Origin: Collimonas fungivorans
GTDB lineage: Bacteria; Pseudomonadota; Gammaproteobacteria; Burkholderiales; Burkholderiaceae_D
Assembly (NCBI RefSeq): GCF_001584145.1
Contig: NZ_CP013232.1
Coordinates: forward strand, 4,278,001 to 4,342,000
Length of the DNA stretch: 64,000 nucleotides
Direction of reading: 5' to 3'
This document shows, piece by piece, positions 37,059-46,706 of the stretch (the stretch's first letter is position 1; every line of letters begins with the position of its first letter). Below the pieces are notes generated by a model. It saw only the letters and a list, made by a program, of their open reading frames with translations, was not told the DNA's origin and did not search any database. Position numbers and translations under genes: made by a program.

Positions 37059-37610
37059 GTGAGCGCGCTTCCCGTGTTCATCGCGTACGTCTATCCCGGC
37101 TGGCACGCGTCGCCATTCCGCCCTGGTTTCGAGGAGTGGAAACTGCTCGATCGCTTCCGGCCTTACTACGAAGGACACGTGGCGCCGCCAAGGCCGAAGG
37201 CCGGATACTACGACGACTCCCGCCCCGAAACAGCTGAGGCAAGCATGCGCCAGGCCAGCGCTTATGGCATTGCCGGATTCTCTTATTTTGCTTACTACCG
37301 GCGCGGCGGCTTCGTCCTCGACGCGCCTGTCGATGCAGCATTCGCGCGCGCCGGAACGGTATCTGCGTTTCAATTATCGCTGACGCTTTGCCTGCGTTTG
37401 CCGCATCGCACACTGCCGCTGCCGCTCGATTACCGCCACTGGCGCGATTCCCCTCCGGCCGCGGCCGAACCCTGTCCGCAACCGGATAATTCCAGGCAGA
37501 CAGAAGTTCGACGGCAGCACACTTTTAGCGAAGTCTCCGAACTCATCGGAGATTCCGAACTGGAAGGCTTCTCGGTTGCTTCATTCCTGCGAATGAAAAA
37601 CTGCAGATAG
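37059..37610 (+). CDS. WbsX/GH99-like enzyme, N-terminal half (pair 1)
   Basis: 183 residues. FIAYVYPGWHASPFRPGFEEWKLLDRFRPYYEGHVAPPRPKAGYYDD and YGIAGFSYFAYY match the first third of WbsX-type proteins (YFPQFHP...FTEW...GFYD...GIDGFCYYHYWF). It then reaches LCLRLPHRTLPLPL where WbsX proteins have NENWTRRW, and ends in an unrelated tail with HTFSEVSELIGDSELEGFS. The C-terminal half, with the NEW-E motif, is a separate gene at 38238. GTG start at 37059 with AGGA upstream. First gene of the operon. Enzymes of this family act on glycans, as glycosyltransferases or glycosidases; activity here is unproven. Confidence 0.75.
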   Translation: MSALPVFIAYVYPGWHASPFRPGFEEWKLLDRFRPYYEGHVAPPRPKAGYYDDSRPETAEASMRQASAYGIAGFSYFAYYRRGGFVLDAPVDAAFARAGTVSAFQLSLTLCLRLPHRTLPLPLDYRHWRDSPPAAAEPCPQPDNSRQTEVRRQHTFSEVSELIGDSELEGFSVASFLRMKNCR

Positions 37611-37661
37611 CCGCTTATCCACCACATGCGCCGATGACCGGCGAAAAAAGGGAGAAACATC

Positions 37662-38219
37662 ATGTCCGACGACGGCGACTATGGCTCTTGGTTCCACCAC
37701 GACTGGGTTGAAGATTTGATTGATGTCATCAGGTCCTACGTAGTGGACCCAGTCGACATTACATTCGGCCAGCTGCGCGAACTGGTCGGCGCGGTCACCG
37801 AGCTCGACGTAGCCGGCGGCAACGCCGGCAAAGTGACGCTGCGCGCGCTGGAAGCCACCATTCGCAGCCACAACGCAACGTTCCTGCCGGTGTCATCGGT
37901 ATTCGGCATCGTCGAGCTGTGCAGCAAGCATGCGAAAGCCACCCATGGCCGCAGTTCGGTACTGGACAGCCTGACGATGAACCAGCTGGGCGCCATCATG
38001 CGGCCCCAGTTTGCGCGGCTGAAACTGGAAGACCTGGTTGGCGTCGCCAGGCTGGCTTCGCGCCAGGCCCGCCATGTCGACGTCTTCGACCAGGTCACCG
38101 TGGAACTGCTGACGCATTCGCTCTCGCACTCGGCCTTGCGCGCATTTACGCTTGCCGAATTGCGAACCACCTTGGAAGGATTGGCGACATCGGGAGTATT
38201 CGCGAAGAGCGAGAAGTAA
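37662..38219 (+). CDS. hypothetical helical-repeat protein between the WbsX halves
   Basis: 185 residues, no family recognised. It is built of loosely repeated units starting with a hydrophobic residue and Thr followed by a helix: ITFGQLRELVG, VTLRALEATIR, LTMNQLGAIMR, VTVELLTHSL, FTLAELRTTLEG. The same kind of unit ends the N-half proteins at 37059 (TFSEVSELIG) and 39017 (FTIGELGRVLG). This may be a docking or scaffold domain. It begins 52 bases after the N-half stop and ends 18 bases before the C-half start. The N-terminus is acidic (MSDDGDYGSWFHHDWVEDL). Confidence 0.7.
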   Translation: MSDDGDYGSWFHHDWVEDLIDVIRSYVVDPVDITFGQLRELVGAVTELDVAGGNAGKVTLRALEATIRSHNATFLPVSSVFGIVELCSKHAKATHGRSSVLDSLTMNQLGAIMRPQFARLKLEDLVGVARLASRQARHVDVFDQVTVELLTHSLSHSALRAFTLAELRTTLEGLATSGVFAKSEK

Positions 38220-38237
38220 TCCCGCCAAGGCGCCGCC

Positions 38238-39020
38238 ATGGACCGGGACAATCCGCACGAGCGGCTCGAGCTGCTCGACTGGCAGAGCATGATTGCGCTA
38301 TTCGAAGGATGGGCCGAGCGCTACTGCGCGCATCCTTCGTATTTCCGCATCGGCGGCCGGCCGGTGTGCTCGTTCCTGAACCTGGGCGATTTCGTGAATA
38401 CCTATGGCCTGGACGGATTCCAGCTCATCATCCAGACAGCACGCCAGATCATGCAAAGGCGCCTTGGACAGGACCCTTTTGTCATCGGCGTGTTTGGCGA
38501 GGCTACCTTGAAGCACTGCGCGCTGGCGAACCAGACTTCGATCGACGGCGCTACAGGCTACGGACTGCTGCCGGAATGGACCGGCCCGCCGGTGCAGCAC
38601 TATGGCGAACTGATTCCGCGCAGGGCCGCCGAATGGGCCATGGTGCAGCGTAATCTGCGGGTGCCGTTCTTTCCCGTCGTGTGCGCTGGATGGGATGCCA
38701 CTGTGCGCGGCGAATGGGCGGCGGACTTGCGCAACTGCCGCGGGTTTCCCTGGCGCCCGGTGGTCGACGGCGTCAACGCCGAATTGTTCGGCCACTTCAT
38801 CGATGCCGCGGTCGCTTTCAACCTTGCCCACCACCCTGACCTCAACGTGGTCTATGTGCACGCATGGAACGAATGGACGGAATCTTCCGCGATCGAACCG
38901 AGCGACCGTTTCGGCGACCAGTTCCTGCGGCAGCTGCAACAGCGGACACGCCTGACGCCGCTCGGACCGGCGTCGAACCTGGCCTTGAATGGCGCCAACC
39001 ACAGGAACATATCGACATGA
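38238..39020 (+). CDS. WbsX/GH99-like enzyme, C-terminal half (pair 1)
   Basis: 260 residues. Begins LLDWQSMIALFEGWAERYCAHPSYFRIGGRPVCSFLN, equivalent to the middle of WbsX proteins (ILLPYFKDPRYIRIDGKPLLLVYR), then PFFPVVCAGWDATVRG, FPWRPV, and VVYVHAWNEWTESSAIEPS. NEW-E is the conserved acidic motif of the WbsX/GH99-like superfamily. About 55% similar by eye to the second C-half at 40280. Its stop overlaps the next start (ATGA at 39017). Confidence 0.78.
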   Translation: MDRDNPHERLELLDWQSMIALFEGWAERYCAHPSYFRIGGRPVCSFLNLGDFVNTYGLDGFQLIIQTARQIMQRRLGQDPFVIGVFGEATLKHCALANQTSIDGATGYGLLPEWTGPPVQHYGELIPRRAAEWAMVQRNLRVPFFPVVCAGWDATVRGEWAADLRNCRGFPWRPVVDGVNAELFGHFIDAAVAFNLAHHPDLNVVYVHAWNEWTESSAIEPSDRFGDQFLRQLQQRTRLTPLGPASNLALNGANHRNIST

Positions 39021-39574
39021 AACAACCTACACAATTCATCGCCTATGTCTATCCTGGCTGGCACGCTAATGAATTCCGCGGCGATTTTGACGAATGGAGC
39101 CTGTTTGACAGGTTCTCTCCTTATTTTGACGGGCACCAGATGCCGTCGCGCCCTGCTGCCGGATTCTATGACGATAGCCAGCAATCGTGTTCAAGGCGGC
39201 AGGTACAGGAAGCCGCCGACGCCGGCATCAATGGCTTCACCTATTTTTTTTATTACGGCAACGACGGCCCGATCATGGCCGGGCCGCTTGACGCTGCCCT
39301 CGATGCAGCGGCCGCAGCCGACACTGCAGCCGATACCGCATTCGAAGTCGGAACCACCTGGTGCCTGCGCCTGCCCCACACGAATTTCCCGATTCCGCTG
39401 GTTGCCGATGGCATGGGAATCAGCGTCGACCGGATTACAGGAAAGGCCGTGCCGGACAGCGAGTTCACCATCGGCGAACTGGGCCGGGTGCTGGGGCCGA
39501 ATTGCCTCGACCAGCTTTCGCTCAGCGCCGCCATGCGGCTGACGCAAATCGGACCAAGGCAGAAAAAGAAATAA
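39017..39574 (+). CDS. WbsX/GH99-like enzyme, N-terminal half (pair 2)
   Basis: 185 residues. FIAYVYPGWHANEFRGDFDEWSLFDRFSPYFDGHQMPSRPAAGFYDD and INGFTYFFYY closely match the first N-half at 37059; it likewise reaches TWCLRLPHTNFPIPL and then changes to SEFTIGELGRVLGPNCLDQLSLSAA and a Lys-rich end. Starts inside the previous stop (ATGA), so it is translationally coupled. Its C-half (40280) is separated by a dioxygenase gene. Confidence 0.75.
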   Translation: MKQPTQFIAYVYPGWHANEFRGDFDEWSLFDRFSPYFDGHQMPSRPAAGFYDDSQQSCSRRQVQEAADAGINGFTYFFYYGNDGPIMAGPLDAALDAAAAADTAADTAFEVGTTWCLRLPHTNFPIPLVADGMGISVDRITGKAVPDSEFTIGELGRVLGPNCLDQLSLSAAMRLTQIGPRQKKK

Positions 39575-39618
39575 CCGGCCAGGCCAGGCGTTGCGATATC
39601 GAAGAAAACGAGGTTTCC

Positions 39619-40302
39619 ATGCTAAATCACCTGATCGTGAAGTACGACACAGAGCGCTATCCTTTTGCGCGCATCGTCGCCAGCCACTTGAGGTGCTCGA
39701 ACCTCGCCGCCATCCATCATGTCCACCAATATCCGAGATTCGACTGCGCCATTGAACAATCCACCGAGCTGCACCATCGGCTGTATGCGATCGGCAAGGA
39801 ATTCTTCGATGTCTACGGCCGTTTCATAAGGGACCAGATCGCACCGATGATCGGCGACGAAATCGTGTACCAGGCGCGACCGAACTTCCGCTTTCAGCTG
39901 CCCGGAAACGTCGCCGTATCCGGTTTCCATCGCGACCGCGACAACCATCATCACACTGCCGAAATCAATTTCTGGGTGCCGCTCACGCCGGTCTCGGAAC
40001 ACACAGCGGTATGGATCGAATCGAGCGAGGGGAAACAGGATTTCCATCCCTATGTCGCCCAGTACGGCGAGATCCTGGTGTTCGACGGCGCCAACCTCAT
40101 GCATGGCAATGTCGTCAACGAAAGCCAGGTCACCCGCTTCAGTTTCGACTTCCGCGCAGTGCCGGCGCGCCTGTTCGAGAACACCGGCATGCGCAGCGTG
40201 AACACCGAAGTCCCGATGTCTGTCGGCGGCTATTTTGCGCCGCTCGATCTTGCGCCGGCCCATGTTATAGCCGCATCGGATGCGGCCTGCCATGTCGACT
40301 AA
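39619..40302 (+). CDS. StrG-like Fe(II)/2-oxoglutarate-type dioxygenase
   Basis: 227 residues. HxD at H104/D106 (SGFHRDRDNHHHTAEINFWVPLTP), distal His 162 (NLMHGNVVNES) and Arg 173 (VTRFSFDFR) form the double-stranded beta-helix iron site. The shape matches the streptomycin-biosynthesis StrG family. It lies between the halves of the second WbsX-like enzyme, suggesting it oxidises a sugar or related small molecule in the same pathway. Confidence 0.82.
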   Translation: MLNHLIVKYDTERYPFARIVASHLRCSNLAAIHHVHQYPRFDCAIEQSTELHHRLYAIGKEFFDVYGRFIRDQIAPMIGDEIVYQARPNFRFQLPGNVAVSGFHRDRDNHHHTAEINFWVPLTPVSEHTAVWIESSEGKQDFHPYVAQYGEILVFDGANLMHGNVVNESQVTRFSFDFRAVPARLFENTGMRSVNTEVPMSVGGYFAPLDLAPAHVIAASDAACHVD

Positions 40303-41056
40303 CCCGGCGCCCGTGAACCCGCAGCCGCTGCGCCCCGTCATCCAGCGTTCGGGGCGGCTGAGCATCGGCGCAGTCGATGGTTTCCTCGACGACTGGATCG
40401 CGCAGTTTGCTTCGCGCCGGGCGTTTCTCCGGATTGACGGCCGTCCGGTCCTGTCGCTGCTCAACGTTACCGACTTCGACAAGCTCTACGGCACAGACGG
40501 ATTCCTGTTCCTGCTGCAGTACATCCGCCGCAAGCTGGTTTCCCATTTCGGCGTGAATCCGTTCCTGATCGGCGTCTTTCCGCTCATCGACGAGTACCAC
40601 ACCAGGATTCTCCAGCGCCTGCCGGTAGACGCCGTCACCGGATACGGCATGCTGCCCGATTGGGAAGGGCCGCCGGTGCAATGGTACGGCGAACTCATAC
40701 CGAAGCGGGTGGCCGAATGGCACCGCCTTCAGCAACGGCTTCGCATCCCGTTCCTGCCTGTGGTCTGCGCCGGCTGGGATGCCACGCTGCGCGGCGCGCC
40801 GGTCGCCGACATCCGCCAGGTGCGAGGTTTCCCCTGGCGGCCGATCGTGGCCGGCGTCACGCCGCAGCTGTTCGGCCGTTTCCTGGATGAGGCGATTGCC
40901 TTTAACGAGCGCTGGCACCCGGCTCACCGTGTGGTCTTCCTGCATGCCTACAACGAATGGACCGAGGCATCGGCGATCGAACCAAGCGAACGGTTTGGCT
41001 CAGGCTTCCTGGAGCAGATTCACGCCAGGTCCAGGCAGCTGGAAGGTGTGCTATGA
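40280..41056 (+). CDS. WbsX/GH99-like enzyme, C-terminal half (pair 2)
   Basis: 258 residues. GAVDGFLDDWIAQFASRRAFLRIDGRPVLSLLNVTDF, PFLPVVCAGWDATLRG, RGFPWRPIVAGV and VVFLHAYNEWTEASAIEPS run parallel to the C-half at 38238. Start 40280 (or 40292) overlaps the dioxygenase stop. Its own stop overlaps the next gene's start. With the N-half at 39017 it would make one complete WbsX-sized enzyme. Confidence 0.78.
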   Translation: MRPAMSTNPAPVNPQPLRPVIQRSGRLSIGAVDGFLDDWIAQFASRRAFLRIDGRPVLSLLNVTDFDKLYGTDGFLFLLQYIRRKLVSHFGVNPFLIGVFPLIDEYHTRILQRLPVDAVTGYGMLPDWEGPPVQWYGELIPKRVAEWHRLQQRLRIPFLPVVCAGWDATLRGAPVADIRQVRGFPWRPIVAGVTPQLFGRFLDEAIAFNERWHPAHRVVFLHAYNEWTEASAIEPSERFGSGFLEQIHARSRQLEGVL

Positions 41057-41901
41057 AACTGCTAATCGCCGGCAAGAGCTTCATCGGCTGCAATAGCTTG
41101 CGCCATGCCCGCGACATGCAGGCGATCGGCGCAACCGGCTATACGCTGCTGGCGCTGCCCAATGCCGGCGACGCTGCCGCCTTGAGCTGGGAACCGTCGT
41201 TGCGCCGGACTGCGCGCCAGCTTGACGTCAATATCGTCGCCGACATCGCTGCGGCCAGTCTCACTGCCGGCGACATATTCCTGTCGGTCGAATACGATCG
41301 CAAGGTCCGCATCGAAGAATTGGGCGGCGCCCGCGCCTACAATCTCCACCTGGCGGCGCTGCCTGGCTATCGCGGCTGCCTCAACAGCAGCTGGCCCTTG
41401 CGCAACGGTGAATCGGCCGCAACCGCCACGCTTCACCAGCTGACCGAAAAAATGGATGCGGGACCGGTGATCGCCGCACGTCAGTTCCAGGTTTCACCGT
41501 TTCATACCGCCTTCGATTTGTATCTCCTTCTGCAACGCCACGGGTTCGAACTGCTGAAGGAACAATTCGCCGGCATGCTGACCGCCGATCACGTCCTGCA
41601 GCCGCAAGCTGCCGGCCAGGCGGTTTTTTATGCGCGCGACTCGATCGATTTCCAGGCCCTGGATGTCGGCGATTTCGAGCGGCCGGCGCGTGTTGTCGAT
41701 GGCTGGGTCCGCTCCCTGATTTTTCCGCCGCGCCAGTTTCCCCGATTCGGCGGACGCGCCATCCGCGGCTGCGAATGCATTGCCCTGCCGCGCAGAGAGC
41801 GGCACCGGCCGGGACAGGTGGCGACCGGCAGCGGCAGCCACGCGGTGATCGCTTGCGCAGATGGTTATGTACGCTTCGAATTCGAGGGAGGCTGGCAATG
41901 A
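41053..41901 (+). CDS. formyltransferase family protein (Fmt/ArnA-like)
   Basis: 282 residues. The 10-formyl-tetrahydrofolate formyltransferase active site is clear: N97 and H99 in NLHLAALPGYRGCLNSSWPL, and D135 in EKMDAGPVIAAR. The C-terminal domain is shorter than in Met-tRNA formyltransferase, as in sugar N-formyltransferases. Likely N-formylates an amino group in the cluster's product, perhaps the amine added by the next gene. ATGA overlap on both sides. Confidence 0.85.
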   Translation: MKLLIAGKSFIGCNSLRHARDMQAIGATGYTLLALPNAGDAAALSWEPSLRRTARQLDVNIVADIAAASLTAGDIFLSVEYDRKVRIEELGGARAYNLHLAALPGYRGCLNSSWPLRNGESAATATLHQLTEKMDAGPVIAARQFQVSPFHTAFDLYLLLQRHGFELLKEQFAGMLTADHVLQPQAAGQAVFYARDSIDFQALDVGDFERPARVVDGWVRSLIFPPRQFPRFGGRAIRGCECIALPRRERHRPGQVATGSGSHAVIACADGYVRFEFEGGWQ

Positions 41902-43058
41902 ACATCGCTTCGGCAAAGATCGTCATGCCGGCAGAGGATATCGACGAAATCACCAGAAACATCCGCCTGATTCTCGAAAGCGGGCGGCTCATCCTCGGGC
42001 CTTACACCGAGGCTTTCGAACAGGCTCTGTCCAGCATGCATGGCGGCGCGCACGCAATCGCCGTCAGCAACGGCACCGGCGCACTGGAAATCGTCTTGCG
42101 CGCGCTGGACGTGCAGGGAAGACAGGTGGTGGTTCCTGCCAATACTTTTTTTGCAACAGCCGCCGCCGCGCTGCATGCCGGCGCCAGCCTGCGGTTTGCC
42201 GACGTCGGCGCACAGACCATGATGCTCACCCTGGCCAGCGTCGAACGCGCCGTGACGACCGATACCGCGGCGGTGGTCATGGTGCATATCGGCGGCGCCA
42301 TTTCGCCGGAACTGGGTGCGATCAAAGCATTTTGCGAGGCGCGCAGCATACACTTGGTTGAGGATGCAGCGCACGCCCTGGGATCGACTTATCAGGGACG
42401 GGCGGCAGGAACGCTCGGCGCAGCAGGTTCATTCTCGTTCTATCCGACCAAGATCGTCACTTGCTGCGAAGGCGGCGCCATCGTCACACGCGATGCAGCG
42501 ATCGCGCGCGAAGCCGTCATCCTTCGCGACCAGGGCAAACAGGCTTTTGCCGAGAACTGCCACATCCGGCTTGGCTATAACTGGCGCCTGAGCGAAATGC
42601 ATGCGGCGGTCGGCCTGGTCCAGCTGCGGCGGCTGCAGCAATTCATCGCGGCAAAACGCGCTGTCGCCGCAAGATACGACCAGCGCATCGCTGTCCTCGA
42701 CGGCGTCACGCCGGTCCTGGAAGCAGCCAGCGTACGTTCCAACTACCATAAATATGTCGTGCTGCTCGATGCCGGCTGCGACAGGACGATGCTGCGCTCC
42801 ATGATGCAGGAGACGGCGGGCATCCAGCTTGGAACCGGCGTCTACGATGTACCGCTCCACCTGCAGCCGGTTTTTTCCGGCATGGACAACACCAGCCTGC
42901 AGGTGGCGGAAGATGTTTGCGCCCGCCACGTCTGCCTGCCGATTCATTCCGACATGACACTGGCAGACGCAGACTGTGTCATAACTGCGCTGGCCGCCTG
43001 CCTGGCCCGCTTGCGCAAAACCGCGGCGCCATTTGTCCGCGAAGGCGAGCTGCAATGA
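41898..43058 (+). CDS. DegT/DnrJ/EryC1/StrS family PLP aminotransferase
   Basis: 386 residues. PLP Lys185 in SFSFYPTKIVTCCEGG, D156 in HLVEDAAHALG and the substrate-pocket GYNWRLSEMHAAVGLVQL. Such enzymes transaminate keto-sugars, or cyclitol ketones in aminoglycoside pathways. With the formyltransferase directly upstream it suggests formation of an N-formylated amino sugar or cyclitol. It is coupled to its neighbour by ATGA. Confidence 0.9.
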   Translation: MNIASAKIVMPAEDIDEITRNIRLILESGRLILGPYTEAFEQALSSMHGGAHAIAVSNGTGALEIVLRALDVQGRQVVVPANTFFATAAAALHAGASLRFADVGAQTMMLTLASVERAVTTDTAAVVMVHIGGAISPELGAIKAFCEARSIHLVEDAAHALGSTYQGRAAGTLGAAGSFSFYPTKIVTCCEGGAIVTRDAAIAREAVILRDQGKQAFAENCHIRLGYNWRLSEMHAAVGLVQLRRLQQFIAAKRAVAARYDQRIAVLDGVTPVLEAASVRSNYHKYVVLLDAGCDRTMLRSMMQETAGIQLGTGVYDVPLHLQPVFSGMDNTSLQVAEDVCARHVCLPIHSDMTLADADCVITALAACLARLRKTAAPFVREGELQ

Positions 43059-43073
43059 AAATGCGGACGCGCC

Positions 43074-44324
43074 ATGGATAGGCACGCTGCGCTGCCTCGC
43101 ATGCGCCCACCTTCGCCACCCGCATGGAGCGACTCCCTGCTGACGGTAGGTGTCACCGGGACTAACGGCAAGACGTCGACTACCGGCATGGTGGCGAACG
43201 CGCTTGGCTGCCTGCAACAGCCGGTGGCTCGCATCACCAGCATCGGCGCCTACCTCGGCAGCGAGCGCATGGATGTGCCGCGCAGCTACGCCGGCCTGAT
43301 AGAGACGATGCGCGCGGTCTTGCAGCGCGGCGGCCGTTATGCCGCGCTTGAGCTGGCCAGCTGGTCATTGGCCCAGGGGTTCGTGCAAGCCTGGCCGTGC
43401 CAGGTTGGCGTCTTTACCAACCTGACTCCCGAACATATGGATATACACGGCTCGATGGAAAACTACCTGGCCGCCAAGACGCAGCTATTCATCAATCTGC
43501 CGGAGACGGGAATCGCCGTGCTCAACGGCTGCGATCCGGCATCGGAAGCCATCGCAGCTGTCACGCCGGCCGGAACGCGGATCATTTATTACGGCGCTGC
43601 ATCGCGCGGCCAGCCATGGCACGCGCTGGACATTATCGCGGACGAGGTAGCCGTGAGCTGGACCGGCACCCGCCTGCGCTTGTCGGCAGCCGCCGGCCTC
43701 GGTCCGGTGCCGCTGGAACTGACGCTGCGGGCGATTGGTGAAATTTATGCGGAAAATGCGCTAGCCGCACTGGCCGCGGCGATCGGCGCTGGCGTTCCGG
43801 CGCAGCTGGCAGCCGATGCCATTGCGGCCACTGCGCCGCCTCCGGGCCGTTTCGAAATACTCGGGCAAGCGCCATGGATCGTGCTGGATTATGCTCACAC
43901 GCCTGACGCCATCTGCCGCACGCTTGCCACGGCGCGCCGATTGAGCCACGGCTGCATATCGATCGTCTTCGGCGCCGGCGGCGACCGCGACCGGCCCAAG
44001 CGGAAACTGATGGGCCAGGCGGCCATGGCGGCCGACCGCGTGTTCCTTACCAGCGACAATCCGCGCAACGAAGATCCGCTGGCCATCATCGAAGATATCC
44101 GGCTTGGGCTGCAAGGGCATCGGGAGGTCAGCGTCAATCCCGATCGCCGGCAGGCCATCATCGCGGCACTTGAAGCGGCCTCGGGCGACGATGTCGTCGT
44201 GCTCGCCGGCCGCGGCCCGGAGACGCACCAATGCGTGCGGGACGCCTGGCATCCCATGTGCGACGCCGATATCGTCCGGGAAATCATCGGCGGCGCAGCG
44301 ATGGTTCACGAAGGATGGACATGA
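43074..44324 (+). CDS. MurE-like Mur ligase family protein without the UDP-binding domain
   Basis: 416 residues. ATP-binding GVTGTNGKTSTT at residues 26-37, central FTNLTPEHMDIHGSMENY (metal and lysine carbamate region), PGRFEIL, DYAHTPDA, GAGGDRDRPKR, and the amino-acid site DNPRNEDP, the MurE motif that holds diaminopimelate. About 80-90 N-terminal residues (the UDP-MurNAc-binding domain of MurE) are missing, the ATPase begins almost at once. It probably adds an amino acid to a carboxylate of a substrate other than UDP-MurNAc. Confidence 0.88.
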   Translation: MDRHAALPRMRPPSPPAWSDSLLTVGVTGTNGKTSTTGMVANALGCLQQPVARITSIGAYLGSERMDVPRSYAGLIETMRAVLQRGGRYAALELASWSLAQGFVQAWPCQVGVFTNLTPEHMDIHGSMENYLAAKTQLFINLPETGIAVLNGCDPASEAIAAVTPAGTRIIYYGAASRGQPWHALDIIADEVAVSWTGTRLRLSAAAGLGPVPLELTLRAIGEIYAENALAALAAAIGAGVPAQLAADAIAATAPPPGRFEILGQAPWIVLDYAHTPDAICRTLATARRLSHGCISIVFGAGGDRDRPKRKLMGQAAMAADRVFLTSDNPRNEDPLAIIEDIRLGLQGHREVSVNPDRRQAIIAALEAASGDDVVVLAGRGPETHQCVRDAWHPMCDADIVREIIGGAAMVHEGWT

Positions 44325-45043
44325 TGGCTCCAAAAAAAATATTGCTGGTCAACGGCTGCAGCCACACCGCGGGGTCGGAAATCGATACGCTTGGCGTGGC
44401 GCCGCACGGCTATTCGCCGGAAAAAGCATTCGGCGCCCGCCTTGCCGATGCAATGGGTTGCGACGATTACGTCAACATTGCGATGCCCGGGGGTTCCAAC
44501 GAACGGATCACGCGCACCACGATCGACTGGATAGGTAAATATCATAAGCCGGCGGACCAGCTGTTCGTGGTGATCATGTGGACCGGCCGCGACCGCTTCG
44601 AACTCTACGACGACCGCAACCGGATCTGGCTCAGCCTGTGTCCGGGCGTGGAACGCTCCAGGTGGTTCGCCGACTTCACTTATGCGGTCCAGCAATACTT
44701 CAAGTTCCACATGCTGGTGCGCACCAGCGACGTTCAGACTTACTCGCGGCTCTGGGCCGAAGTCATCATGATGCAAAGCTACCTGAAGATCAACCACATC
44801 AATTACATGTTCTGCAACGCCTACCAGGGCCTTCCTGAAACCCAGGAATATGCCGGCTTCCGCAGCCAGGTCGATCTTGCAGCCTACTACCAGCCATTCG
44901 AAGACAGCACCGGTTTTGTGCAGATCCTGACGCAGCAAGGATTCAAGACGCGCGCCGGCGACAATGTGCATTTTGGCGAAGACGGGCACCGTTACTGGGC
45001 CGGCGTCTTGCACGCCTTTATTCAAGACAGGAGACTGGCATGA
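44321..45043 (+). CDS. SGNH-like/DUF6071-type protein
   Basis: 240 residues. KKILLVNGCSHTAGSE near the N-terminus resembles the first block of SGNH hydrolases (nucleophile Ser after GCS), NIAMPGGSNERITRTTIDWI the Gly/Asn blocks, and NVHFGEDGHRYWAGVL the terminal D/H block. Such proteins occur near carbamoyltransferases and in phage genomes (recollection). It could be an acyl esterase or transferase. Coupled by ATGA to both neighbours. Confidence 0.7.
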   Translation: MMAPKKILLVNGCSHTAGSEIDTLGVAPHGYSPEKAFGARLADAMGCDDYVNIAMPGGSNERITRTTIDWIGKYHKPADQLFVVIMWTGRDRFELYDDRNRIWLSLCPGVERSRWFADFTYAVQQYFKFHMLVRTSDVQTYSRLWAEVIMMQSYLKINHINYMFCNAYQGLPETQEYAGFRSQVDLAAYYQPFEDSTGFVQILTQQGFKTRAGDNVHFGEDGHRYWAGVLHAFIQDRRLA

Positions 45044-45144
45044 TGAAATATCTCAAGCACCTGCTGCAACGCTGGAGCACCGCGCGGGCGTACAAGAAAA
45101 AAATGCGCGCCATCAGGAAGCGCGATCCCTACATTTACAAATAA
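45040..45144 (+). CDS. 34-residue basic peptide ending RDPYIYK
   Basis: MMKYLKHLLQRWSTARAYKK, then KMRAIRKRDPYIYK and stop. Eleven Lys/Arg residues, an amphipathic-helix-like N-terminal half and an aromatic C-terminus. The SD AGGAG, 6 bases before the ATG, is the best in the operon, so the peptide is probably well made. It starts inside the SGNH-like gene's stop (ATGATG), and the carbamoyltransferase follows after 11 bases. It could be a modified precursor, a carrier, or a partner subunit of one of the flanking enzymes. Confidence 0.65.
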   Translation: MMKYLKHLLQRWSTARAYKKKMRAIRKRDPYIYK

Positions 45145-45155
45145 CTGCAGCCGCC

Positions 45156-46706
45156 ATGATTTCCTGGGGCATCTCTGCCCGCAGCCATGACGCGGCATTG
45201 GCGGTATTTGCCGACGGCGCGCTGGTATTTGCAGCGCACGCGGAACGTTATTCCAAAATCAAGAATGACTGCGAGCTTGCTCCCGGCCTGATTGCGGATG
45301 CGCTTGCCTATGGCGAACCCGGGCAGATCGTCTGGTACGAACGGCCCTGGCTGAAGAAAACCAGGCAGGTGCTGGCGGGGCAATGGCAGGAAATCCGAGA
45401 GACGGAAAATATCGCTCGCTACCTGTCCAGGTACTTGCAGGTCTCCCGTCCTGTTTCATTCGTCAGTCATCACCTGAGCCACGCGGCAGCCGGATATTAC
45501 ACATCGCCGTTCCGCGATGCGACGATCATCGTGCTTGACGCCATCGGCGAATGGCAAACCTTTACCATCTGGGAAGCGGCTGGAACCCAGCTCAAGCTCC
45601 GCTTCAGCCAGCGCTACCCGCATTCGGTCGGCCTCTGGTATTCCGCCATGACTCAGCGCTGCGGCTTCAAGCCGAACGAAGAAGAGTACATCCTGATGGG
45701 CCTGTCGGCCTTCGGCGACCCGCTGAAATATTACGACAGGATCAAGGCCGATTTTTTTGTGTGGCGGCAGGACCATCCGTCGGTCCGGCTGCGCCACAAC
45801 CTGCATCGCGGCTGCAGATGGTGGGCGCCGGATATCACGGACGTCGAAAACATCGCCGCTGCGACCCAAAGAATCTATGATGACATCCTGCTGCACGCAT
45901 CGCGCTTTGCGGGCCAGGCCCTGCCGAGCAGGAACCTGGTGCTGATGGGCGGCTGCGCCCTCAACTGCGTAGCCAACCGGCGCCTGGCGGATAGCGGCGA
46001 CTGGGACGACATATGGGTGATGCCCTGCCCTGGCGATGCCGGCAGTAGCATAGGCTGCGTGCTGGCTACCATGAAGGAATTCGTGCACTGGCCTGGACCG
46101 TTTCTCGGACACTGTATCGACGGTTCCTACCCCGTCGCACAGGCCCTGCGGCGCCTGACTGCCGGCGAAGTCGTCGGCATCGCCAACGGCCGGGCCGAAT
46201 TCGGCCCGCGTGCGCTGGGTAATCGCAGCCTGCTGGCCGATCCACGGATAGCCGACAGCCAGTCGAAGGTCAACGCCATCAAGCAACGGGAAAAGTTCAG
46301 ACCGTTCGCGCCGGCCATCATGGCTGAAATGGCGGCAGATTATTTCGACATGGGCCTGCCTTCCAGCCCCTACATGCAGTTTACCGCCAGGTGCAAACAG
46401 CCTGAACAGTTTCCAGGCATTGTCCACGTCGACGGCACCTCGCGCGTGCAGACCGTGACGGCAGCGGACAATCCTGGATTCTACGCATTGCTGCGTGAAT
46501 TCCACGACGCCACAGGCTGCCCCATGCTGCTCAATACAAGCCTGAATGTAAAAGGTGAACCGCTCGTCAACGACAGGCAGGATGCCGCCCGCTTTGCCAT
46601 CACCTATGGAGTGCCGGTGTTCTGCGATGGAACAGAAGAAAAGCCAGGCCCGCCGGTGACAGCGAGCCGGTCAGACCCGGCTCTTCTCTTTTCATTCAAC
46701 CGCTAA
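45156..46706 (+). CDS. carbamoyltransferase (NodU/CmcH family)
   Basis: 516 residues. N-terminal Kae1-like half: HHLSHAAAGYYTSPF (metal His pair), LDAIGEW, EEEYILMGLSAFGDP, LMGGCALNCVANRRL; C-terminal YrdC-like half: GRAEFGPRALGNRSLLADPR, REKFRPFAPAI, NTSLNVKGEP. O-carbamoylates a hydroxyl from carbamoyl phosphate, as in Nod factor, cephamycin and novobiocin pathways. The last gene of the operon. Confidence 0.9.
   Translation: MISWGISARSHDAALAVFADGALVFAAHAERYSKIKNDCELAPGLIADALAYGEPGQIVWYERPWLKKTRQVLAGQWQEIRETENIARYLSRYLQVSRPVSFVSHHLSHAAAGYYTSPFRDATIIVLDAIGEWQTFTIWEAAGTQLKLRFSQRYPHSVGLWYSAMTQRCGFKPNEEEYILMGLSAFGDPLKYYDRIKADFFVWRQDHPSVRLRHNLHRGCRWWAPDITDVENIAAATQRIYDDILLHASRFAGQALPSRNLVLMGGCALNCVANRRLADSGDWDDIWVMPCPGDAGSSIGCVLATMKEFVHWPGPFLGHCIDGSYPVAQALRRLTAGEVVGIANGRAEFGPRALGNRSLLADPRIADSQSKVNAIKQREKFRPFAPAIMAEMAADYFDMGLPSSPYMQFTARCKQPEQFPGIVHVDGTSRVQTVTAADNPGFYALLREFHDATGCPMLLNTSLNVKGEPLVNDRQDAARFAITYGVPVFCDGTEEKPGPPVTASRSDPALLFSFNR

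Follow-up and report, generated by a model that had tools for sequence, protein, structure and literature searches.

What does a basic peptide of 34 residues do beside a carbamoyltransferase (CT), and what does the operon that encodes both produce? These questions are raised by a twelve-gene operon at positions 37059-46706 of the window, a 64,000-nucleotide stretch of the 5.6-Mb single-contig genome of Collimonas fungivorans. Many antibiotics and surface sugars have their activity adjusted by carbamoylation, and to our knowledge the transferases responsible have been treated as lone enzymes. The original prediction, made from the letters of the DNA, proposed a product with an N-formyl amine and an O-carbamate and mentioned the 'RDPYIYK peptide' in passing. 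In our analysis, this by-note turned out to be the most telling part of the operon: sequence comparisons indicate that the peptide is a member of a conserved microprotein family tied mainly to one CT clade and to DUF6071 proteins.

The microprotein and its gene neighbours in bacteria and phages

The gene product called SGNH in the original prediction matched DUF6071 (PF19547) above the curated cut-off (Table 1). An AlphaFold2 model of a relative (locus L024; pLDDT 86.1) matched TesA-type SGNH hydrolases (Foldseek E 3.7e-05), and the DUF6071 profile gave chance-level rows only against PDB sequences. The plasmid CTs closest to the window CT (52-53% identity) come from two records of Mesorhizobium and four of Streptomyces, in all of which a DUF6071 gene adjoins the CT, and in two genomes of another family of the same phylum (G077 and G089) DUF6071 lies directly upstream of the CT. 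All junctions that were read (Collimonas, two Mesorhizobium and two Streptomyces records, G077 and G089) carry the same tail, consisting of a basic stretch, P[FY][IM]Y, one residue and a stop. In Streptomyces, the tail belongs to a stand-alone open reading frame (ORF) before the CT, 30 aa long by the nearest ATG, which the PLSDB gene table, itself incomplete, does not list. The copies in M. loti, G077 and G089 form the C-terminus of DUF6071 instead. All six frames of 543,702 bases (counting overlapping loci) were searched for the motif with a minimum of 5 K/R among the 25 residues before it, and it was detected at those junctions only. With the viral contigs described below, the microprotein occurs in Collimonas, Streptomyces, Mesorhizobium and another proteobacterial genus.

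Neither a Pfam nor a PHROGs family was matched by the microprotein. A nine-peptide profile recovered the Collimonas copies only among 300 genomes of the order (E 0.05), tblastn of the peptide against phages and plasmids returned nothing informative, and the PHROGs scan yielded CT families ('Nol-like carbamoyltransferase') and a chance-level row only. A literature search found no paper with the motif strings searched and none naming DUF6071. The idea that the terminal module is common in the phylum was rejected, DUF6071 being present in 4 of 398 genomes, two of which are Collimonas. DUF6071 genes are also present in Plantactinospora and Dactylosporangium; among eight genomes of the G077 family it was found in two, both already among the known cases.

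Several DUF6071 loci showed further features. The M. huakuii DUF6071 (L055:14082-14696) is annotated shorter than the M. loti copy, with the tail codons readable upstream of the CT. Multidomain proteins of 1985 and 1994 aa, polyketide synthase-like by eye, precede the DUF6071-tail gene and the CT at L023:3648-9605 and L024:10028-16012. On a plasmid of Pantoea sp. At-9b (L063:7172-10991), a phytanoyl-CoA dioxygenase, a CT and an SGNH hydrolase stand in a row with adjoining ATP-grasp genes, and the microprotein motif was not found in this stretch.

Viral contigs were scanned with an alignment of the module CTs, which gave at least 600 pattern matches, at least 586 of them CT relatives. Among the best 80 of these matches, chosen by likeness to the peptide-bearing CT and including the query's own contig (L162), the microprotein was present in 77 loci, typically as ...YRKKLKELRKRDPFIYK, a count that describes that CT clade rather than all CTs and includes near-copies (67 unique peptides). 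Counting ORFs of at least 80 aa, nothing lies between peptide and CT in 49 loci, DUF6071-type genes only in 23 and other genes in 5, and 20 of the 80 loci have an overlap (offset +3) between the stop of the peptide and the start of the CT. A representative viral DUF6071-type gene scored 28.9 bits against PF19547 (cut-off 27). The terminal module, namely DUF6071, the basic microprotein ending in DP[FY]IY plus a residue, and the CT, recurs from bacteria to phages.

Since P and Y had been built into the pattern of the first conservation count, a recount was anchored on the basic stretch alone with the tail left free. PFIY followed the basic stretch in 76 of 76 matches (one per locus, 76 loci), continuing to K-stop in 72 and directly to a stop in 4, and the minus strand gave 0 matches. 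Across the 76 DNA variants, the proportion of synonymous differences (pS) in the 16 codons before the motif was 0.81 and that of nonsynonymous differences (pN) was 0.22, indicating that selection maintains the microprotein at the protein level. When the motif codons were included, pN was 0.11, partly because the pattern fixes the motif.

On many contigs of the set L162-L241, some longer than 300 kb, the microprotein and the CT are part of a phage-borne biosynthetic cluster that also has up to three radical SAM proteins, a 360-aa protein with no assigned family and between one and three SGNH genes of the DUF6071 type, with DegT and epimerase genes in some. The tail FRKRDPFIYP terminates a 145-aa protein with a weak SnoaL_2 match (L217:2131-2568), and near position 1450 of the same contig lies a variant peptide that stands alone and has the end PYIYK. 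Upstream of the L191 CT, two tails follow in a row, the standard one next to the CT and a variant ending in NKKPFIYW about 0.6 kb upstream. At L086:9572-9688 and L117:9615-9731, a microprotein ending in DPFIYKH directly follows a CT from another lineage, and DUF6071 lies upstream.

The window CT has the N- and C-terminal CT domains with their conserved blocks, and carbamoyl transfer is predicted for it. Its nearest PDB relatives (profile A7) are NovN (9s2t), GdmN and TobZ, and its score against NF041651 (NodU), 148.6 bits against an equivalog cut-off of 1000, indicates the right kind of enzyme and not the equivalog. In a quick tree of 73 CTs with unsure long branches, for which 24 viral peptide-bearing rows were hand-picked, 28 of the 30 microprotein-bearing rows and four others (L154, L181, L225 and L238) formed one clade (SH-aLRT 100), which includes the window CT. 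A second CT-family match lies elsewhere in the window genome (G000:C1:593658-594152; 45% over residues 327-492).

A proposed docking tail or a possible modified precursor

What, then, might the microprotein do? We tentatively propose, with more doubt than confidence, that it is the founder of a carrier or adaptor family dedicated to one CT clade, whose DP[FY]IY tail is transplantable and occurs alone or grafted onto SGNH and other proteins. A predicted helix leads into the tail. In our overall account of the operon (below), this helix and the flexible C-terminus would dock on the CT and present a substrate-bearing partner, and DUF6071 might load or release the cargo as an acyl transferase or hydrolase.

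Alternatively, the microprotein may be the substrate, that is, a precursor of the kind of ribosomally synthesized and post-translationally modified peptides (RiPPs), with its Tyr (or Lys) carbamoylated before trimming and with the other enzymes decorating it. The literature consulted (PMC8064604, PMC8067088, PMC4010436 and PMC13174530) provides a precedent: the NodU-like CT StdF transfers a carbamoyl group to a Lys of a RiPP precursor whose C-terminus bears a conserved motif (PMC13174530). The motif Tyr likewise follows the basic stretch in every viral match of the recount, whose pattern did not impose it, and is found in bacterial tails. However, Lys is not universal in the tail (Mesorhizobium has none in the last 18 residues), K, P, E, H, W and the motif Tyr itself all occur as the final residue, fused tails retain the motif at the end of DUF6071 proteins, and no peptidase or RiPP-enzyme family was matched among the 12 ORFs. 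We therefore consider a precursor role unlikely. A docking tail or carrier fits better, because the last residue is free, there is no universal Lys, and the tail ends DUF6071 in three genomes as well as the 145-aa L217 protein. If the carrier or adaptor reading is true, the family would be common to large phages, Streptomyces, rhizobia and Collimonas. A microprotein beside one CT clade from soil bacteria to phages, outside the Pfam and PHROGs families, would change the annotation and engineering of such pathways.

The operon, its split barrels and its inferred product

The operon in which the microprotein lies comprises 12 intact ORFs on the same strand, in the order N1-X-C1-N2-OX-C2-FT-DegT-Mur ligase-DUF6071-microprotein-CT (Table 1), with no internal stop in any of them. 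All five ATGA stop/start overlaps (39017, 41053, 41898, 44321 and 45040) were found, confirming the tightly packed twelve-gene operon that had been predicted. Families were assigned with Pfam and NCBIfam, and for the microprotein also with PHROGs; the starts of OX, C2 and CT were revised as tabulated. A scan gave 4 promoter-like sites (mean of shuffled sequences 2.9) and 16 terminator-like sites (shuffled mean 9.2, sd 3.0), one of the latter at 46664-46683 just within the CT 3' end; these sites were not used as evidence.

Table 1 Open reading frames of the operon, in window coordinates
Feature	Position	Strand	Description
N1	37059..37610	+	N-half of split GH99/WbsX-type barrel 1, 183 aa, GTG start; PF14307 21-97 of 350, 53.1 bits
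X	37662..38219	+	185 aa, no known family; between the halves of split pair 1
C1	38238..39020	+	C-half of split GH99/WbsX barrel 1; PF14307 266-349
N2	39017..39574	+	N-half of split GH99/WbsX barrel 2; PF14307 16-97, 50.6 bits; ATGA overlap with C1
OX	39619..40302	+	Putative 2-oxoglutarate (2OG)-Fe(II) oxygenase, 227 aa; between the halves of split pair 2
C2	40280..41056 (ATG 40280 or 40292)	+	C-half of barrel 2; PF14307 270-350, 46.1 bits
FT	41053..41901	+	Formyltransferase, sugar N-formyltransferase type; PF00551 33.4 bits, cut-off 26.1; ATGA overlap
DegT	41898..43058	+	DegT/DnrJ/StrS aminotransferase; PF01041 340.6 bits; ATGA overlap
Mur ligase	43074..44324	+	MurE-type amide ligase without N-terminal domain; PF08245, PF02875; TIGR01085 293.2 bits, model 83-471 of 472
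DUF6071	44321..45043	+	DUF6071 SGNH-fold protein; PF19547 80.8 bits, cut-off 27; ATGA overlap
Microprotein	45040..45144	+	34 aa, basic, C-terminal RKRDPYIYK; ATGA overlap; no Pfam/PHROGs family
CT	45156..46706	+	NodU/NovN/TobZ-type carbamoyltransferase, 516 aa; PF02543, PF16861

The proteins described as WbsX-like glycan enzymes in the original prediction do belong to that family, and their nature proved different: they are two GH99-fold barrels, each encoded as an N gene and a C gene with another gene between. The halves are on separate ORFs in the window genome (G000) and in two other Collimonas genomes, G003 and G004, and the two pairs resemble each other (N1 and N2, 48% identity over 122 aa; C1 and C2, 52% over 219 aa). 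The GH99 endo-alpha-mannosidase/mannanase fold (WbsX, PF14307) is that of the fused relative of the halves, and its (beta/alpha)8 barrel is recognizable here, although not on a single polypeptide: the operon version has two proteins per barrel, twice, with an intervening gene each time. The N-E-W-x-E motif of C1 is kept in 27 of 27 aligned sequences, with x variable, and GH99 enzymes have two glutamates at the same spacing of three residues, as with E333 and E336 altered in GH99 entries. This WbsX group is mostly listed as half-length proteins (71 of 76). The split C-half profile matched 2 of 398 genomes at E 1e-20, both Collimonas, which also spoke against a module common in the phylum; C-half genes are present in Plantactinospora and Asanoa as well. 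After the microprotein, the split GH99 barrels are the second unusual feature of the operon that lends itself to testing.

Protein X, between the halves of the first pair, is the best conserved of nine proteins compared with G003 (99% identity; 98.9%). It had no Pfam match over cut-off and no NCBIfam family, and its relatives among 5.8 billion proteins (E 0.001) form a single cluster of 97% identity, with none outside it. We rejected the idea that X is a tandem of the linker repeat of fused GH99 relatives, since the five-linker profile scored -3.0 and 655 of 655 scored shuffles reach that value.

Between two conserved genes, some Collimonas carry the operon while in congeners the flanks adjoin without it, so that it is a discrete unit which has been gained or lost there. 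C1 was found at 94-95% identity in 2 of 14 congeners searched, G003 and the C. fungivorans metagenome-assembled genome G004, and a third, G010, gave only a weak match to another WbsX protein. In G003, nine operon genes used as tblastn queries were 84-99% identical in the same order with the same neighbours, and N2, C2 and the microprotein are also present; in G004, the order holds from N1 to the start of DegT, inside which the contig ends. The expected conservation of gene order in other genomes was thus borne out, within one genus. The flanking lipase gene occurs in 8 of 11 other congeners searched. In six of them (G005, G006, G008, G009, G010 and G012), the SRPBCC-type and lipase genes are about 0.6-0.9 kb apart, with 0 matches to the nine operon queries. 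In G013, which carries the lipase gene twice, the gap is longer and likewise free of operon genes, and in G007 the stretch fetched yielded the lipase alone. A profile A1 search of genome contigs returned, besides the C. fungivorans metagenome-assembled genome, one distant Lentisphaeria protein only, and a C1 search of plasmids gave nothing informative.

The predicted enzyme list and operon organisation are supported by the family matches. The nearest PDB relatives of FT are 5uij and the TDP-3-aminoquinovose N-formyltransferase 4xcz, and that of DegT is the perosamine synthetase 3bn1, with ArnB further down. The match of the Mur ligase to MurE begins at position 83 of the 472 in the model, with the central and C-terminal domains present and the N-terminal domain missing. 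OX matched no Pfam family and no PDB relative at E 1, and a search with protein P0003 against PDB gave nothing informative. Since the nearest structures of FT and DegT are sugar enzymes and those of the CT are antibiotic O-carbamoyltransferases, a product with an N-formyl amine and a carbamate, as first predicted, is reasonable.

Such a set could instead serve the modification of a cell-surface glycan, with GH99-like enzymes acting on a polysaccharide that is later formylated and carbamoylated. WbsX is listed by Pfam as a glycosyltransferase, mannans are substrates of GH99 enzymes, and DegT and FT are of sugar type. Nevertheless, apart from the WbsX halves, no Wzx/Wzy flippase or polymerase, ordinary glycosyltransferase or nucleotide-sugar synthesis family was matched among the 12 ORFs, and the nearest CT structures are antibiotic-tailoring enzymes. 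We thus regard a surface-glycan role as the least probable of the explanations weighed, and the locus shows no sign of the known surface polysaccharide locus that the original prediction had named as its refutation.

Our overall account, to which we give about an even chance, is that the operon may be a mobile pathway for a formylated and carbamoylated aminosugar product whose CT is served by the tail-docking carrier or adaptor. DegT and FT would equip a sugar-like intermediate with an N-formylamino group, a glycosyl unit might be transferred or trimmed by the split GH99 enzymes, the Mur ligase could add an amino acid via an amide, and the CT would add the O-carbamate.

Several observations weigh against this account. 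On the enzyme side, OX reached 60.8 bits against TIGR04324 (the 'sporadic carbohydrate cluster' oxygenase), below the cut-off of 150, and the operon holds no nucleotide-sugar synthesis gene. On the side of the microprotein, the viral loci were selected as described above. The CTs of L086 and L117, of different lineage, form a separate pair in the tree with the peptide beside them, and the motif is missing from the stretch scanned around the clade members L181, L225, L238 and phage C48C1 (L154). The remaining 39 CT rows of the tree showed no motif in stretches so short (mostly about 1.5 kb per side) that a distant peptide may be missed. The mean isoelectric point of the peptide-bearing CTs is 7.8 versus 6.7 for the rest, so that they are no more acidic and give no support for a simple acidic docking face, and a CT naturally fused to the tail was not encountered. 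Nor is DUF6071 tied to the peptide: of 85 viral loci with DUF6071 (80 taken as the best among 144, and 5 more), 6 show the standard peptide, L087 and L088 being copies, and 5 of the 85 hold a CT, and a fused tail was found in 0 of 79 DUF6071 proteins, a set of proteins only, in which a separate peptide is invisible. The L024 model has low confidence at the tail, which says little, as only 2 of 54 alignment rows have the tail; a separate idea, docking of the tail on its own DUF6071, found no sign in this model.

Comparison with known systems

The O-carbamoyltransferases NovN, GdmN and TobZ share both CT domains and many invariant positions with the operon CT, whereas the operon-type CT is compact (about 490-516 aa) and accompanied by a microprotein; no microprotein-like partner was found among the molecule names of the nearest CT PDB entries. 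LysW-type carriers are tiny encoded partners with a conserved C-terminus within the pathways of amino-acid metabolites. The same holds for the PEARL/TglA-type scaffold peptides of small-molecule pathways. In contrast to both, the microprotein is basic, its last residue is not conserved and its tail can be part of another protein, and no PEARL (LanB-like peptide-aminoacyl-tRNA ligase) or ATP-grasp family was matched among the operon ORFs scanned. StdF of the std RiPP cluster (PMC13174530), also a NodU-like CT, acts on a ribosomally made peptide in which a motif at the C-terminus is conserved; in that system, however, the motif is SNKEWQE and the CT is fused to a peptidase. The YcaO and MNIO families were not found in the operon.

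The closest known system, compared by description, is the gvg cluster for the herbicide 4-formylaminooxyvinylglycine (FVG). In P. fluorescens WH6, it lists gvgA (lipase/esterase), gvgB (a Lys-rich small ORF listed as required), gvgC (heme-oxygenase-like) and gvgF (NodU CT), together with an aminotransferase and a formyltransferase (PMC8067088), and gvg-like clusters with the core gvgA, B, C and F, most of them uncharacterised, are reported from many genera (PMC8064604). Cluster and operon have in common an SGNH-type gene, a basic small ORF and a NodU-type CT standing together, besides an aminotransferase and a formyltransferase, and gvgA, as described, falls in the fold class of DUF6071. The original claim that no published pathway has this gene set holds within the literature searched, with gvg sharing the core of SGNH, Lys-rich small ORF and CT by description.

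The operon could accordingly be a variant gvg-type pathway for a small non-proteinogenic amino acid, for which these three genes would be the common core. We judge this rather improbable: no heme-oxygenase-like family (gvgC) was found in the ORFs scanned, DegT takes the place of a class III aminotransferase, and the split GH99 pairs, DegT and Mur ligase point to sugar or peptide chemistry. GvgA, GvgB and GvgF were compared by their descriptions. Having three of the four core kinds, without gvgC, the operon was not filed as a gvg member; it differs further in its split GH99 pairs, Mur-type ligase and 2OG-oxygenase-like gene. If the carrier or adaptor reading is true, it would give gvgB a function, and the role of this essential small ORF in FVG synthesis becomes a question of binding and activity.

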